Assembly: GCA_903853735.1 (NCBI GenBank)
Contig: CAINUH010000023.1
Location: 1 to 5,218 of the forward strand
From: an uncultured Desulfomonile sp.
Lineage (GTDB): Bacteria; Desulfobacterota; Desulfomonilia; Desulfomonilales; Desulfomonilaceae
DNA: 5,218 bases
Reading direction: 5' to 3'
Positions within the stretch are counted from its first letter, which is position 1, and the number at the start of each line of letters is the position of its first letter. This document shows positions 1-5,217 of this stretch, one piece after another. The notes beneath the pieces are model-generated. The model had not been told where the DNA came from and searched no databases. It worked only from the letters and a program-made list of their open reading frames with translations. The translations under genes and the position numbers were made by a program.

Positions 1-305
1 ATTTCGAACAGGTACGGGTTAAGTCCTGCTTCCTCGCACGCACTCATGAAAAGTGGTTCGTGAGTTCGCGGAGTACAGGACGCTACGACCACGCGATTCA
101 GTTTTTCCCTGGGAATGGCCTCTTTGATCTCGTTTATCCCACCTTCGGAGCAGGTGTAGAGGTTTTCCTGAACAAAGACTACTCCAGGCAAAGTTTTTGC
201 ATGATCGACGAGTTCCTGCATGTGCAAGTATCCCGCGATGTTGGAACCACAGTCGCAAACAAAAACCCCTATTCTCACTTCAGATTTGGATTGGTCTTTC
301 AACAC
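1..305 (-). CDS. HdrA-type protein, N-terminal domain only (3' end outside window)
   Basis: Only the first 101 codons are present; the gene continues beyond the left edge. The visible part is the HdrA N-terminal iron-sulfur domain: RIGVFVCDCGSNIAG (C17, C19), ENLYTCSEGG (C52), then VVVASCTPRTHEPLF (C77) and EEAGLNPYLFE. It is clearly paralogous to residues 27-117 of the 582-residue HdrA in this window, sharing ASCTPRTH, EAGLN.YL and the spacing of all four cysteines, but it is not a close duplicate. Start is assigned to GTG 305 because GGAG (311-314) lies 5 nt upstream and no in-frame ATG is available close by; TTG 302 is the adjacent alternative. The start is 10 nt after the stop of the Sec-containing hdrA, so the two are probably co-transcribed. 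Whether it carries a flavin domain, ferredoxin domains or an MvhD fusion cannot be seen. Confidence 0.85.
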   Translation of the reverse strand, partial: MLKDQSKSEVRIGVFVCDCGSNIAGYLHMQELVDHAKTLPGVVFVQENLYTCSEGGINEIKEAIPREKLNRVVVASCTPRTHEPLFMSACEEAGLNPYLFE

Positions 306-310
306 TACAT

Positions 311-314
311 CTCC
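311..314 (-). promoter_or_regulatory. Shine-Dalgarno site for the GTG-started hdrA-type gene
   Basis: GGAG lies 5 nt before GTG 305, just past the TGA stop of the preceding gene. The two ATGs nearby (310 and 316) are in another frame and hit TAG at once, so the site supports the GTG start. Confidence 0.55.
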
Positions 315-315
315 A

Positions 316-1749
316 TCAAACGGCAAGAGACCGGTTGCCTATCATTACGGCTTCAGCAGCCCGAGCAGCAGCACTGCCGGCCTGGACCACGGACTCAGGA
401 ATGTCCAGCGGCCCCTGGGCGCATCCACACGTGTAGATTCCTGGAATACTCGTATCCAACGGCCTATTCGGGTGAGTCTTAACGAAGTTGTTTTCGTCCA
501 ACTCCACACCGAGAAGGCTGGCCACGCCACTGATCCCACGTGAAGCCGAACACGCATTTGCCAGTATCACCATGTCGAGGGTCAGGCTCACAACCTTACG
601 CAGTTCAGTGTCCTCATAACAAACCACCGGATTAAGATCCCCGTCCTGAACAATCTCAGCCACTCTGCCGCGAATGTATTTGACACCTGAGACCTTGGCG
701 CCTCTTACCTTGTATTCCTCGAAACCCTTTCCTACGGTTCTCAGGTCCATGTAAAAAATGTAGGATTCCGTTTCCGGCTCGTGCTCCTTTGCTATTATGG
801 CTTCCTTGATCGAATGCATGCAGCAGTAGCTTGAACAATACTTGTGAAAGCGAAAATCTCGCGACCCCACACATTGGACGAATCCAAGCTTCTTGGCTGT
901 GTGGTACCTGTGCACATGATCTTCAAGACGCGTCTGCTCCTCCTGAAGCTTCATCAACTCATCGGCGTTCTCCGATTTCTCGGCTTTCTTGATCAACTTG
1001 GAAAGGTCTTTGAGCCGAGCTTCGCCGTGAATCACCGACGGCCTACTCAAATGGCCCTTGGTAGGGCCGCCCGCACTGAGGAGACGTTCCATTTCAAGTG
1101 ACGAAATCACATTGGGGAGCCGACCGTATCCGTATTCCGATATCTGAGCGGCGTCAAAAAGCTCGTACCCGGTGGACACGATCACTGACGCCACGCTAAG
1201 CTCAACATCCAAATCTTTTTGCTCGTAGTCAATTGCTTTGGCCTGGCATACCTTCGCACATACCCCGCATTTACCACCCTGGAGCACCTTGCAGTTGTTG
1301 GGATCTATGGTGTAAACGGAAGGAATTCCCTGGGCATAATCCTTGTAAATAGCTTTGCGCTGGTCCAGACCAAAATTAAACTCATTCGGCACCTTGGTGG
1401 GGCACTTTTCAGCGCAAGCTCCACATGCAGTGCATCTGGTTTGGTCGACAAAGCGAGCCTTTCTATGCACATTCACTTTGAAATCACCTAACCGGCCCGA
1501 GAAATCAGTTACTTCACTGTAAGCCAACAGGTTTATGTTCGGATGCCGACCGACATCCAGCAGCTTGGGCGAAAGAATTCATATTGTACAGTCGTTGGTG
1601 GGAAATGTTTTGTCAAGCTGGGCCATTTTCCCGCCAATGCTCGGGTTCTTCTCCACCAGGTGGACACGAATCCCCATTTCGCCCAGATCCAAGGCGGCTT
1701 GCATGCCCGCGATCCCGCCGCCGATTATAAGAACCTCACGTGATGCCAT
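316..1749 (-). CDS. hdrA: Short HdrA/QmoA-like FAD/iron-sulfur protein, predicted selenoprotein (Sec57)
   Basis: This is an HdrA-family flavoprotein, the electron-splitting subunit in Hdr complexes. The 477-residue frame has an FAD Rossmann motif LIIGGGIAG (7-15) with acidic E33, and [18 protein letters not shown] (38-54). Codon 57 is UGA within NDCTIU; the family has NDCxxC here, so Sec replaces the second Cys. [15 protein letters not shown] follows directly and matches HdrA. The internal ferredoxin has C106/109/112/116 and C153/161/164/168, the latter as the HdrA-type Cx7CxxCxxxC. The FVQCVGSRD...CSSYCC motif has C293, C305, C309 and C310. [16 protein letters not shown] near the C-terminus is also typical. 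Neither the HdrA N-terminal domain nor the C-terminal ferredoxin is present, giving QmoA-like size. Residues about 239-287 are a charged, helix-prone insertion. Start ATG 1749 has AAGGA 10 nt upstream. Starting at TTG 1527, after the UGA, would remove the flavin motif. The stop TGA is 10 nt before the next gene. Confidence 0.9.
1541..1558 (-). promoter_or_regulatory. Bacterial SECIS-like hairpin of hdrA
   Basis: On the coding strand GGATGTC-GGTC-GGCATCC pairs over 7 bp, including one U-G pair, around a GGUC tetraloop. A flanking U-G pair could extend the stem. It begins 20 nt after the UGA, so the apical loop starts 27 nt after the UGA, within the bacterial SECIS range and with G at both leading loop positions. 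The stem also codes for the conserved DVGRHP segment. Found by eye, not folded computationally. Confidence 0.72.
1579..1581 (-). other. In-frame UGA, predicted selenocysteine codon 57 of hdrA
   Basis: TGA falls between NDCTI and [15 protein letters not shown], both strongly HdrA-like, at the second Cys of the family's NDCxxC motif. The frame is open for 56 codons before and 420 after. A SECIS-like hairpin follows. Sec-containing HdrA proteins are known in some methanogens and deltaproteobacteria. Confidence 0.88.
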
Positions 1750-1844: not shown

Positions 1845-2975
1845 TCAAGTTTTTAAGGCCTGTGCCAGAAGGTCGTTTATGTCTCTAATCTTCAGATTCT
1901 TATCCGTATCACGAAGTGCACAATTCAGATGCACTCGGCATTTGGGGCATGCGGTCACCAGGGTGTCAGCGCCGACAGCCACTGCTTCATCGAGACGTCT
2001 TTTTTGTATTTCCTTGGAGCACGCTGAACAGTTCATCCACGCACTTGTGCCGCAGCACAGACCATTTTCCCTGTTGTGTTCCATTTCTCGAAGGACAACC
2101 CCGGGAATGCCGGCGATCAAGTTTCTCGGCGCATCCATTATCCCGGCCTGGCGACCCAGGCGACACGGGTCATGATAGGTCAACACACCGTCCAATGGAT
2201 CCAGTTCCACCGACCCTTTCTTGAATTCCGAGGCCAATAGTTCGTAAAAATGGACCGGCTCGAATCCCAGTTCACCCACAACTTCAGGATAATACTTCTT
2301 GAAAGTGAGATAACCTTCCGGACAGTGAAACACTACCCGTTTGACACCAAGACCTCGTATGAGGTCAACATTACGCTGTGCCAGGCGGGCAAAATTCGCA
2401 CGGTCGCCGTTCCACATGAGGTCATGGCCGCAACAGCGCTCGTCATCATGAATTATTGGTTCGATCCCTAAAGTGTTGAGGAGCTTGAGCACCCCGCGCG
2501 GCCCGTCCATGACGTCCAAGCCCCAATCGTCCAAGAATTCCACCTCGAAGAAAGGAGAGCATCCAACAAAAAAATAGGTGTCGCCATGGTCGGATATTCG
2601 GCCTATCTCACGGGCCCACTCCGTCCTGCTCTGTTTCACTTCCAGAGTTTGCAGACGCATTATGCCCTGGAAAAGTCCTCGATGCGCCTGGACTCCCCCT
2701 TTACCACGACGTACAGCCTCTTCCCTAACCATCCTTACGAACTCCGGGTAATCGATATTGGATGGGCACCGTGAACTGCACTGGCCGCACGACAGACAGG
2801 ACCAAATATTGATATCCTCAAAGGGGTTTTCTTGTTCACCCATGAGGACCTTTTCAACCATGAGACGAGGGGAAAAGTCGGGGGTTACTCGGGAAACCGG
2901 GCAGCTTCCCGTGCATATCCCGCAGTCTAAACAGTAATAAGCATGTGTTCGATCCACAATATCGGGTAAATTCAT
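1845..2975 (-). CDS. HdrC-HdrB fusion (HdrD-like), CCG-domain iron-sulfur protein
   Basis: This subunit combines HdrC, which carries electrons, and HdrB, whose CCG domains in the family bind noncubane [4Fe-4S] clusters and reduce a disulfide. Residues 15-25 (YCLDCGICTGSCPV: C15/18/21/25) and 60-70 (SCLSCGQCSSRCPS: C60/63/66/70) are two [4Fe-4S] ferredoxin motifs. The first CCG repeat has C139, C181-C182 and C218; the second has C271 (YHDPCRLGRQ), C307-C308 (GLCCGTSAWM) and C343/C346 (ACPKC). The first repeat ends in CPEG instead of CxxC, so it lacks one usual cluster ligand; the second is complete. The size, 376 residues, fits fused HdrCB and BamD-like proteins. The ATG overlaps the mvhD stop (ATGA), implying translational coupling, and a purine stretch GAGAG lies about 8 nt upstream. 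It has no signal peptide or membrane span, so it is probably a soluble cytoplasmic subunit rather than a membrane-bound HdrD partner of HdrE. The stop is TGA. The in vivo substrate is not known. Confidence 0.9.
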   Translation of the reverse strand: MNLPDIVDRTHAYYCLDCGICTGSCPVSRVTPDFSPRLMVEKVLMGEQENPFEDINIWSCLSCGQCSSRCPSNIDYPEFVRMVREEAVRRGKGGVQAHRGLFQGIMRLQTLEVKQSRTEWAREIGRISDHGDTYFFVGCSPFFEVEFLDDWGLDVMDGPRGVLKLLNTLGIEPIIHDDERCCGHDLMWNGDRANFARLAQRNVDLIRGLGVKRVVFHCPEGYLTFKKYYPEVVGELGFEPVHFYELLASEFKKGSVELDPLDGVLTYHDPCRLGRQAGIMDAPRNLIAGIPGVVLREMEHNRENGLCCGTSAWMNCSACSKEIQKRRLDEAVAVGADTLVTACPKCRVHLNCALRDTDKNLKIRDINDLLAQALKT

Positions 2976-3400
2976 GCTGCGGTCTCTCTTTTTATAATAG
3001 GATTCTTTCCCAGTTGTAGTATTGTCTCGGTAAACTCACGTATTGTCTGGGCAAACCTGATGCCCTCTGATGCCGATATCCATTCCTTACGGAGGCGAGC
3101 ATCTTCTATTCCCAGCAGTTTCATTAACTTCCTGGTTTTCTCAATGACTTTGACAGCTTTTTCATTACCTTCCAGGTAATGGCATTCACCAATGTGTCAA
3201 CCAGTTACAAGGACACCGTCAGCTCCTTTTTCAAAGGCTTTGAGAATGTATGACGGCGCGAGCATACCCGAACACATCAGGCGGATCAGGCGAATACTGG
3301 GAGGGTATTGCATCCTTCCCACCCCGGCCAAATCCGCTCCCGCATACGAGCACCAATTACAGGCGAACGCTATGATCTTGGGATCAAAATCTTGAGTCAT
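2972..3400 (-). CDS. mvhD: MvhD-family [2Fe-2S] electron-transfer subunit, predicted selenoprotein (Sec68)
   Basis: MvhD passes electrons from a hydrogenase, formate dehydrogenase or other oxidoreductase to the flavin of HdrA, using a [2Fe-2S] cluster held by conserved cysteines. The 142-residue frame contains the family hallmarks [14 protein letters not shown] (C14, C17), [15 protein letters not shown] (C43), [14 protein letters not shown] and then UHIGECHY (codon 68 UGA, C73). The tail includes [13 protein letters not shown]. The family normally has Cys at position 68, so UGA is best read as Sec. Read through, length and C-terminus are normal for the family; stopped at UGA it would be a 67-residue fragment lacking the second half of the domain. 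ATG 3400 is chosen because GGGAG (3406-3410) sits 5 nt upstream; a GTG at 3406 is also in frame but overlaps that site. The gene follows the 582-residue HdrA by 68 nt and its TGA stop overlaps the next ATG (ATGA). The Sec reading depends on selABCD genes that are not in this window. Confidence 0.9.
3163..3181 (-). promoter_or_regulatory. Bacterial SECIS-like hairpin of mvhD
   Basis: On the coding strand CATTACC-TGGAA-GGTAATG forms a perfect 7-bp stem with a 5-nt loop. It starts 15 nt after the UGA, so the apical loop begins 22 nt after it. A G is in the first two loop bases. Both features fit the bacterial SECIS (SelB-binding) consensus of a small G-containing loop roughly 16-37 nt past the UGA. 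The stem also codes for the conserved HYLEGN segment, so part of the pairing could be coincidental. Found by eye, not folded computationally. Confidence 0.75.
3197..3199 (-). other. In-frame UGA, predicted selenocysteine codon 68 of mvhD
   Basis: TGA interrupts an otherwise continuous MvhD reading frame exactly where the family has a conserved Cys (VTG-U-HIGECHY). The frame continues for 74 well-conserved residues to a TGA at a family-typical C-terminus. Sec-containing MvhD-family proteins are known in some methanogens and deltaproteobacteria. A SECIS-like hairpin follows at the expected distance. Confidence 0.88.
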
Positions 3401-3405
3401 TTTCA

Positions 3406-3410
3406 CTCCC
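3406..3410 (-). promoter_or_regulatory. Shine-Dalgarno site deciding the mvhD start
   Basis: GGGAG lies 5 nt before ATG 3400. The alternative in-frame GTG (3404-3406) begins at the last G of this site and would have no usable spacing, so ATG 3400 is preferred. Confidence 0.6.
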
Positions 3411-3468: not shown

Positions 3469-5217
3469 TCAGGCAATGGCTGCATCGATCATTTGTCCAA
3501 TCTGCTCATCCTTGAAGTGGCGGACCTGGGCCGCTCCCGTGGGACATGCTACGCCGCACGCCCCGCATCCCTTACAGAGAGCGGGATTGATCTGAGATTG
3601 TAATATGCCTGTGGCCGCTTCCTTTAACTCCGGCGCATGGAAAGGACATACATCGACGCATCTGCCGCATCCCCTGCACAGGAATTGATCTACCACCGCG
3701 ACCATCCCTGGTGCTTCCACATAGCCTCTTGCGAGAACCTGTGCAGCATGCGAACCCGCAGCTTCCGCTTGGGCTATCGACTCGTCGAGCGGCTTGGGAT
3801 AATGGGCGAGCCCTGCCAGAAAAACGCCGTCAGTCGCAAAATCAACCGGCCTCAGCTTCATGTGGGCTTCGAGAAAAAAACCGTCCTCGTTGACGGAGAC
3901 CTTGAATAGCCTGGCCAATTCTCTGTTATATTCACTTGGAATAATTGCGGCCGCCAGAACCAAACTGTCGACTTCAAGGTTTATGGTTCCGCCCAACACC
4001 AAGTCTTTGAACCTCACAGTTAATTTGGCGCCAACTTCCACGACAGGAGGATCTTCCGGCTCATAGCGAGCGAATATAACGCCTAAGCGCCTTGCTTTCT
4101 CGTAGTACGGCTCATTGAGCCCGAAAGTCCGCACATCCCGGTACAGAACGAATATGTTAGCGGTAGGATTGGCTTCTTTGAGAGTTATGGCTTCCATGAC
4201 CGTGTGGTTGCAGCACACCTTGCTGCACCATGGCCGTTCGTCACACCTCGACCCCACGCACTGGATGAACACGGTAGTCCCCGCGTTCATTACTGCCGGA
4301 TCTTTGGTTCCTGTTGCTTGACTCATTTCCAGATGAGTTCTGATCCGCTGGTCCAGGCCGTACCCATAAACATCAGGCTTCCATTCACCGGCACCTATGG
4401 AAACGACCGCCACTCCGTGTTCGATCTCCTCAGGTTCACTGCCATTAGAACTTATCTTGGTCTTGAAATTGCCTATGAAGCCTTGAACCTCTTCGATATG
4501 TGAGTTGAAACGGACGGTGATTCGATCATGAGAAGTAACCTTATCGATCAGTTCACGCACAAACGGCTGAATATTTTCATTCTTCAGTGTGTGGACCAGC
4601 CTCAAGGCATTACCGCCAAGCTTATCGGTTGCCTCGAGCAGATGCACCTGGAACCCCTGGTCTGCGATGTTGAGAGCGGAACTCATGCCGGCAACGCCGC
4701 CTCCGATTACCAGTGCAGCCTGCACCATAGGCAACTGCTGGTCTTCCACTTGTTCCAACCGGGCGGTCCTGACAACCGCCATACGGATCAAGTCTACAGC
4801 CTTATCGGTAGCTTTCTCTTTCTCCTGCATGTGGACCCACGAACAGTGCTCTCTGATATTGGCCATTTCAACCAGGTACTTGTTCAACCCGGCCTCACGA
4901 GCCGTTTCATGAAAAAGAGGGAGATGGGTTCGGGGAGTACAGGACGCAACTATCACTCGATTAAGGTTATTTTCTGTAATGGCTTTTTTGATCTGTATTT
5001 GAGCGTCCTGAGAGCAAGTGAAAAGATTCTCGTTTGCGTACGCGACTCCGGGGATATTCCTGATACGTTCCACCACATCCGGGACATTTACTGTGGAGGC
5101 AATATTGATGCCGCATCTGCAGACAAATACGCCTATTCTCGGCTCTTGTCCGCTGAAATCCTTTTCAGGGGGAAGTTCTTTCTTGACGGTGAGCGTATTC
5201 CGGTTTTCAGCGAGCAT
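3469..5217 (-). CDS. HdrA-type FAD/iron-sulfur electron-transfer protein (QmoB/HdrA-like, no internal ferredoxin)
   Basis: This is a cytoplasmic flavin and iron-sulfur subunit of a heterodisulfide-reductase-type complex, inferred to pass electrons between MvhD, ferredoxin and the other Hdr subunits. Residues 27-130 form the HdrA N-terminal domain (RIGVFVCRCGINI with C33/C35, TCS C68, ASCTPRTH C93, EHCSWVH C125). A Rossmann FAD motif VIGGGVAG lies at 170-177. The HdrA cluster motif IQCVGSR...CSKVCC has C320, C325, C331, C335 and C336. A C-terminal 2x[4Fe-4S] ferredoxin has C514/517/520/524 and C548/551/554/558. Between C125 and C320 there is no cysteine, so the ferredoxin normally inserted in HdrA, and the NDCxxC motif, are absent. 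In this it resembles QmoB without its MvhD tail, and a separate mvhD follows 68 nt later. The ATG at 5217 lies one base from the edge. No later ATG, GTG or TTG precedes RIGVF, so this start or an upstream one is used and the gene may be 5'-incomplete. Stop is TGA. Family call is firm; partner assignment is inference. Confidence 0.9.
   Translation of the reverse strand: MLAENRNTLTVKKELPPEKDFSGQEPRIGVFVCRCGINIASTVNVPDVVERIRNIPGVAYANENLFTCSQDAQIQIKKAITENNLNRVIVASCTPRTHLPLFHETAREAGLNKYLVEMANIREHCSWVHMQEKEKATDKAVDLIRMAVVRTARLEQVEDQQLPMVQAALVIGGGVAGMSSALNIADQGFQVHLLEATDKLGGNALRLVHTLKNENIQPFVRELIDKVTSHDRITVRFNSHIEEVQGFIGNFKTKISSNGSEPEEIEHGVAVVSIGAGEWKPDVYGYGLDQRIRTHLEMSQATGTKDPAVMNAGTTVFIQCVGSRCDERPWCSKVCCNHTVMEAITLKEANPTANIFVLYRDVRTFGLNEPYYEKARRLGVIFARYEPEDPPVVEVGAKLTVRFKDLVLGGTINLEVDSLVLAAAIIPSEYNRELARLFKVSVNEDGFFLEAHMKLRPVDFATDGVFLAGLAHYPKPLDESIAQAEAAGSHAAQVLARGYVEAPGMVAVVDQFLCRGCGRCVDVCPFHAPELKEAATGILQSQINPALCKGCGACGVACPTGAAQVRHFKDEQIGQMIDAAIA

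Follow-up and report, generated by a model that had tools for sequence, protein, structure and literature searches.

A predicted selenocysteine-containing HdrA core, split from its other domains, in Desulfomonile and related bacteria

The window, by which we mean the whole 5,218-nucleotide stretch of DNA from an uncultured Desulfomonile sp. that was analysed here, contains on its minus strand a short hdrA gene (316..1749) in which an in-frame UGA at codon 57 is very likely decoded as selenocysteine (Sec). Comparison with relatives reveals a conserved UGA, a conserved hairpin downstream of it, the Sec machinery in the related genomes, and homologues that have cysteine at the same site. The explanation that we hold to be highly probable as a whole is that the hairpin and the SelA/SelB/SelD/tRNA-Sec system together would convert UGA57 into Sec, and that the product would serve as the HdrA core of a heterodisulfide reductase (Hdr)-type complex.

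Results

The reading frame that opens at ATG 1749 on the minus strand has a single internal stop, TGA 1581-1579, before it ends at TGA 318-316, and comprises 477 sense codons including the predicted Sec57. The UGA (1579..1581, minus strand), identified as the predicted Sec codon by orthologue comparison and alignment with solved structures, is at the second cysteine position of an NDCxxC (CxxC) motif, which reads NDCTIU in this gene (codons 52-57; 1579..1596, minus strand). An earlier note, made from the sequence of this DNA, had proposed that the frame from ATG 1749 runs through a UGA at codon 57 and that conventional gene calling starts at TTG 1527; the frame is indeed otherwise open as far as its terminator, and the table-11 open reading frame (ORF) does start at TTG 1527.

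How well is the UGA conserved? In a search of 42 genomes from the class of genome G001 (hereafter the class), the short HdrA was found in 13, at full length in 12 and at a contig end in one, and the matched portion of every one of the 13 (77-91% identity) contains a single TGA and no further stop. Nine HdrA fusions with no internal stop also came out of this search, one belonging to a fourteenth genome. Two loci fetched for their mvhD genes (L075 and L076) revealed the short-hdrA UGA in two more genomes, one being that fourteenth genome, and with the window the UGA-bearing short hdrA genes number 16. A search of the phylum, in which the best four candidates per genome were scored, gave at least 8 of 395 genomes. 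The isoleucine codons that flank the UGA (window 1576-1584) are ATA before it and ATT after it in all 13 full-length genes, and likewise in three other loci; ATA represents 26% of the isoleucine codons in those full-length genes, and the UGA of three short forms from outside the class is preceded by ATC, CTC and ATC. The fixed flanks are possibly a context for UGA decoding, or else a product of shared ancestry.

Alignment with solved structures places codon 57 on Cys197 of 5odc_A, on a cysteine of 8rvu_a and on an X of 9sfi_A, which we infer to stand for Sec. The fused HdrA paralogues have TGC or TGT in the same column. Among the 120 homologues listed, of 8000 that passed the threshold, only eight reach the site: seven span residue 57 with a cysteine and one (P0121) has a gap there, in keeping with the proposal that the UGA replaces a conserved cysteine. 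The other 112 begin past the site, their starts falling on 14 different codons between 63 and 120; this confirms the expectation that databases hold truncated forms. Listed homologues that are 99% identical include those of a Deltaproteobacteria bacterium (P0003) and a Desulfomonile sp. (P0006). Because their starts lie past codon 57, the 112 records lack the flavin motif, and functional surveys would misread them. Could the truncated form nevertheless be real, with translation stopping at UGA 57 and restarting, at TTG 1527 for example, to give two proteins, the second an HdrA without the FAD motif? It is the form that gene callers record, but the scatter of the called starts over 14 codons means that no single restart site is conserved, the GGGIAG flavin motif upstream of the UGA is kept in every orthologue displayed, and the cysteine homologues are one continuous chain. 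Of the alternatives to Sec insertion, restart is the best survivor and is still very improbable.

The SECIS-like hairpin (GGAUGUC-GGUC-GGCAUCC; 1541..1558, minus strand) was assessed by conservation, synonymous diversity and a hairpin control. Its stem begins 20 nt past the UGA and its GGUC loop 27 nt past it; the earlier note was correct in describing an 18-nt hairpin with this loop, although the 27 nt that it gave as the distance to the hairpin is the distance to the loop. Bacterial SECIS elements have a spacing of 16-37 nt, the value used in the hairpin control, and this hairpin resembles them in lying just downstream of the UGA and in having a G in the first loop positions. It is kept in all 15 sequences folded, the window and 14 relatives (L075, which is cut, and L001, the same gene as L054, were left out), with the consensus GGAUGUC-GGUC-GRCAUCC, and only one of its 18 nucleotides varies, pairing as U-A or U-G. 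The folding energy is ordinary (z of -0.90, -0.40 and -0.42 for three stretches), and in Rfam, scanned at E values as high as 5, there was nothing beyond one chance snoRNA match. Since the folding energy was unremarkable, synonymous-site conservation was used as support for a SECIS instead. Synonymous diversity was measured at 256 invariant degenerate codons in a set of 13 full-length genes (L056, L075 and L076, with the gene incomplete in these loci, were left out, as was L001). Codons 64-71 form the least diverse of 251 windows, with a value 0.28 of that expected, and none of 20,000 amino-acid-matched draws was as low, a count that is not a strict probability because the 13 genes are related. 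In the hairpin control, run with stringency matched, a comparable hairpin follows 139 of the 5876 codon positions; 12 or more of the 13 genes share one solely at codons 54-60, from each of which the GGUC hairpin is the one seen. Two of three fused cysteine paralogues of the class are without a hairpin and the third has a stem of -0.5 kcal/mol, whereas a hairpin is present in all eight Sec forms tested alongside them. Outside the class, the short Sec forms have the same GGUC hairpin (3/3) and the fused Sec forms a different one, with an AGGU loop (4/4).

The machinery for Sec insertion is found in the relatives that have the UGA: all 15 have SelB and SelA, the latter truncated in G003 and G016, and 14 have tRNA-Sec and SelD. 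The exception is G004, an assembly in at least 508 contigs, where neither tRNA-Sec nor SelD was matched at the thresholds applied. SelD itself has one in-frame TGA in 13 of its 14 matches. The presence of SelA and SelB does not single out the short hdrA, because they are common in members of the class without the gene (SelB in 37 and SelA in 35 of the 42 genomes). If UGA were reassigned throughout the genome, or read through by a normal tRNA for Trp or Cys with no need of SelB, it would be expected that two or more genes of the operon tolerate it, as they do. However, UGA is still a stop signal here because the short hdrA itself terminates with TGA, the residue aligned to the internal UGA is cysteine and not tryptophan, and the hairpin and the SelA, SelB and tRNA-Sec of the relatives also speak against it; reassignment or readthrough is scarcely credible.

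To which family does the protein belong? It matches NF040770 (E 9.9e-153), NF041778 (over residues 4-475) and 5odc_A (E 3e-129), and corresponds to the flavin/ferredoxin core of HdrA, at roughly positions 138-577 of profiles that are 771-777 long. Scores against the HdrA models, which describe full-length proteins, are below the curated cut-offs (510 of 1100 and 422 of 1400 bits), as fits the missing domains of a split HdrA core. The N-terminal domain and the C-terminal ferredoxin domain of a single-chain HdrA are absent; the N-terminal part is in the next ORF (3..326, minus strand), which is cut by the window start and is the beginning of a long HdrA with the N-terminal HdrA domain. The AlphaFold model (mean pLDDT 68.2) was not used for the Sec site because residues 37-62 fall below 50. 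A functional role for the short HdrA is suggested by homology. The earlier note's reading of the gene, a Sec-HdrA that has a SECIS-like hairpin and lies next to a Sec-MvhD, is supported, but its description as QmoA-like is not. QmoA of the quinone-interacting membrane oxidoreductase is an HdrA-related flavoprotein of similar length, and the protein is 31% identical to the QmoA of one relative. Yet that QmoA, encoded beside qmoC, has FPKLCPPTC in place of FPTNDCTIU, is missing the majority of the ferredoxin cysteines and belongs to a separate qmoABC locus, qmoC lies away from the short hdrA in all three relatives searched, and the best-fitting families are HdrA models among the 25 displayed, which include no QmoA model, so that the protein is most unlikely to be QmoA. 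Weakest of all is a pseudogene or a sequencing error (TGC or TGT to TGA), for which nothing speaks besides the stop itself, and against which stand the TGA in 13 of 13 orthologues, never replaced by TAA or TAG nor joined by a second stop, and the conserved hairpin.

The neighbouring genes are on the same strand as the short hdrA. The MvhD/FlpD gene (2972..3406; PF02662, E 4.7e-52) encodes an FlpD domain with an in-frame UGA at codon 70 (3199-3197) before HxGxCHY. Downstream of this UGA is a SECIS-like hairpin, CAUUACC-UGGAA-GGUAAUG (3163..3181, minus strand), recognised by folding and by synonymous diversity, which is there the lowest of 72 windows at 0.16 of expectation (16 genes). In each of 15 genomes the closest mvhD match (78-90% identity) has one TGA. 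Between mvhD and the short hdrA is a gene for an HdrD-like protein with Fer4 domains and two CCG stretches (1845..2975, minus strand). The ORF at 3469..5217 (minus strand) is part of a long HdrA cut by the window end, and its apparent ATG there is probably not its true start, because its counterpart in relatives is the second half of a fusion of ~1010-1030 aa with a cysteine-containing HdrA core. In relatives, the gene next after the short hdrA encodes a long HdrA, which has the C-terminal ferredoxin part as well.

The complete arrangement can be read in one relative on a single 6.5 Mb contig: hdrC, hdrB (assigned by eye), fused hdrA (Cys), mvhD (Sec), hdrD, short hdrA (Sec), long hdrA, a second mvhD (Sec) and an FdhB/FrhB-like gene (also by eye). 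In 11 of the 13 short-hdrA genomes a second Sec-mvhD is found nearby, a few kb away at most and on the same contig. This second mvhD, downstream of the long hdrA (for example G012:C1:4959941-4960342), has one TGA and is 54% identical to the mvhD of the window. BamE of class II benzoyl-CoA reductase, also considered as a possible identity, would be expected in a cluster with bamB and bamC; neither was noticed by eye in one relative, among plus-strand ORFs of at least 110 aa in a joined stretch of 34 kb, read onwards of base 7500.

Operons of the class have two HdrA cores, the fused one with cysteine and the split one with Sec (three genomes). Two genomes from other classes, G327 and G398, the latter with two copies, have a UGA in both cores (the loci compared include L089, at 11086 and 15760, and L097-L099), in the order fused hdrA, mvhD, hdrD, short hdrA, long hdrA, mvhD, and only a fused hdrA, with UGA, was found in G288. 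A midpoint-rooted tree of 31 rows requires at least three changes between Sec and cysteine. The seven cysteine short forms of this tree are one clade (100/100); long branches meet in the tree, and the placement of the clade relative to the Sec forms is tentative, as is any order of Sec and cysteine drawn from it. Having both forms in one operon gives a natural Sec/Cys pair, with which the contribution of Sec to HdrA could be studied. That the choice between Sec and cysteine marks which of two flavins bifurcates, in a complex where Sec would tune one of the two flavin sites, is an idea that we put forward as improbable but worth stating.

Discussion

What might a Sec-containing HdrA core do in these bacteria? 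The SelA/SelB/SelD/tRNA-Sec system would decode the UGA of codon 57, directed by the hairpin that starts 20 nt downstream, to give a predicted FAD-binding HdrA core of 477 residues. The N- and C-terminal domains that this core lacks would be provided by the adjacent long HdrA, the two jointly making up one HdrA. Its partners would be the Sec-containing MvhD and HdrD, and in relatives also HdrB, HdrC, the fused HdrA and the second MvhD, in a cytosolic heterodisulfide reductase-type electron-transfer complex that is probably flavin-based bifurcating or confurcating. Electrons would run through the flavin and a chain of Fe-S clusters, as in the HdrABC-MvhAGD complex of methanogens. A similar mode has been proposed for Desulfobacterium autotrophicum (PMC2702500, in the portion available). 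Sec would replace the cysteine equivalent to position 197 of 5odc_A and may have a chemical role there; no passage on the role of HdrA Cys197 was found in the literature looked into, which included part of PMC12054007.

Sec-HdrA with a CxxU motif is a listed selenoprotein family in the available sections of PMC13188914 and PMC9312934. Its misreading at the UGA in methanogens is described there and in parts of PMC11227280 and PMC12054007, the last of which reports a truncation artefact similar to the one found here. Like the short HdrA, members of this family (COG1148/NF040770) in archaea and bacteria have Sec at the second cysteine of CxxC and an adjacent mvhD or frhD, and the hairpin of the short hdrA is inside the coding sequence, as in bacteria. 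Unlike them, the Sec gene here encodes the flavin/ferredoxin core alone, with the other domains in the next gene.

No literature linking Desulfomonile with a selenoprotein was found; PMC5296606, in the part accessible, covers Desulfomonile, heterodisulfide reductase and HdrA. Within the literature searched, much of it in partial text, the short Sec-hdrA of Desulfomonile is undescribed, while Sec-HdrA, the Sec-MvhD operon and the truncated annotation are already published. What is added is a Sec-HdrA that is well supported and that has been conserved in a lineage of bacteria. The earlier note had considered the combination of Sec-HdrA with Sec-MvhD noteworthy; the combination stands, but it is less noteworthy because excerpts of PMC1794560 and PMC2702500 already describe deltaproteobacterial clusters in which Sec-HdrA accompanies Sec-FrhD/MvhD and hdrA is present as tandem or split genes.

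In Desulfococcus multivorans (dmul_C02770/80; PMC5109826, from the text available), hdrA contains a UGA and a SECIS and was annotated as two ORFs, and MvhD also has Sec, a likeness that we draw from the description. Other close parallels are the Sec-hdrA/Sec-frhD (mvhD)/glpC operons of Syntrophobacter fumaroxidans and Desulfobacterium autotrophicum (PMC1794560 and PMC2702500, as excerpted), which share with the present cluster the tandem or split hdrA, Sec in MvhD/FrhD and an HdrD/GlpC-like Fe-S protein. Unlike those operons, the cluster of the relative had no hydrogenase FrhA or FrhG genes that were noticed by eye. It also differs from them in having HdrC and HdrB at its front, and a fused cysteine-containing HdrA beside the split Sec-containing HdrA.
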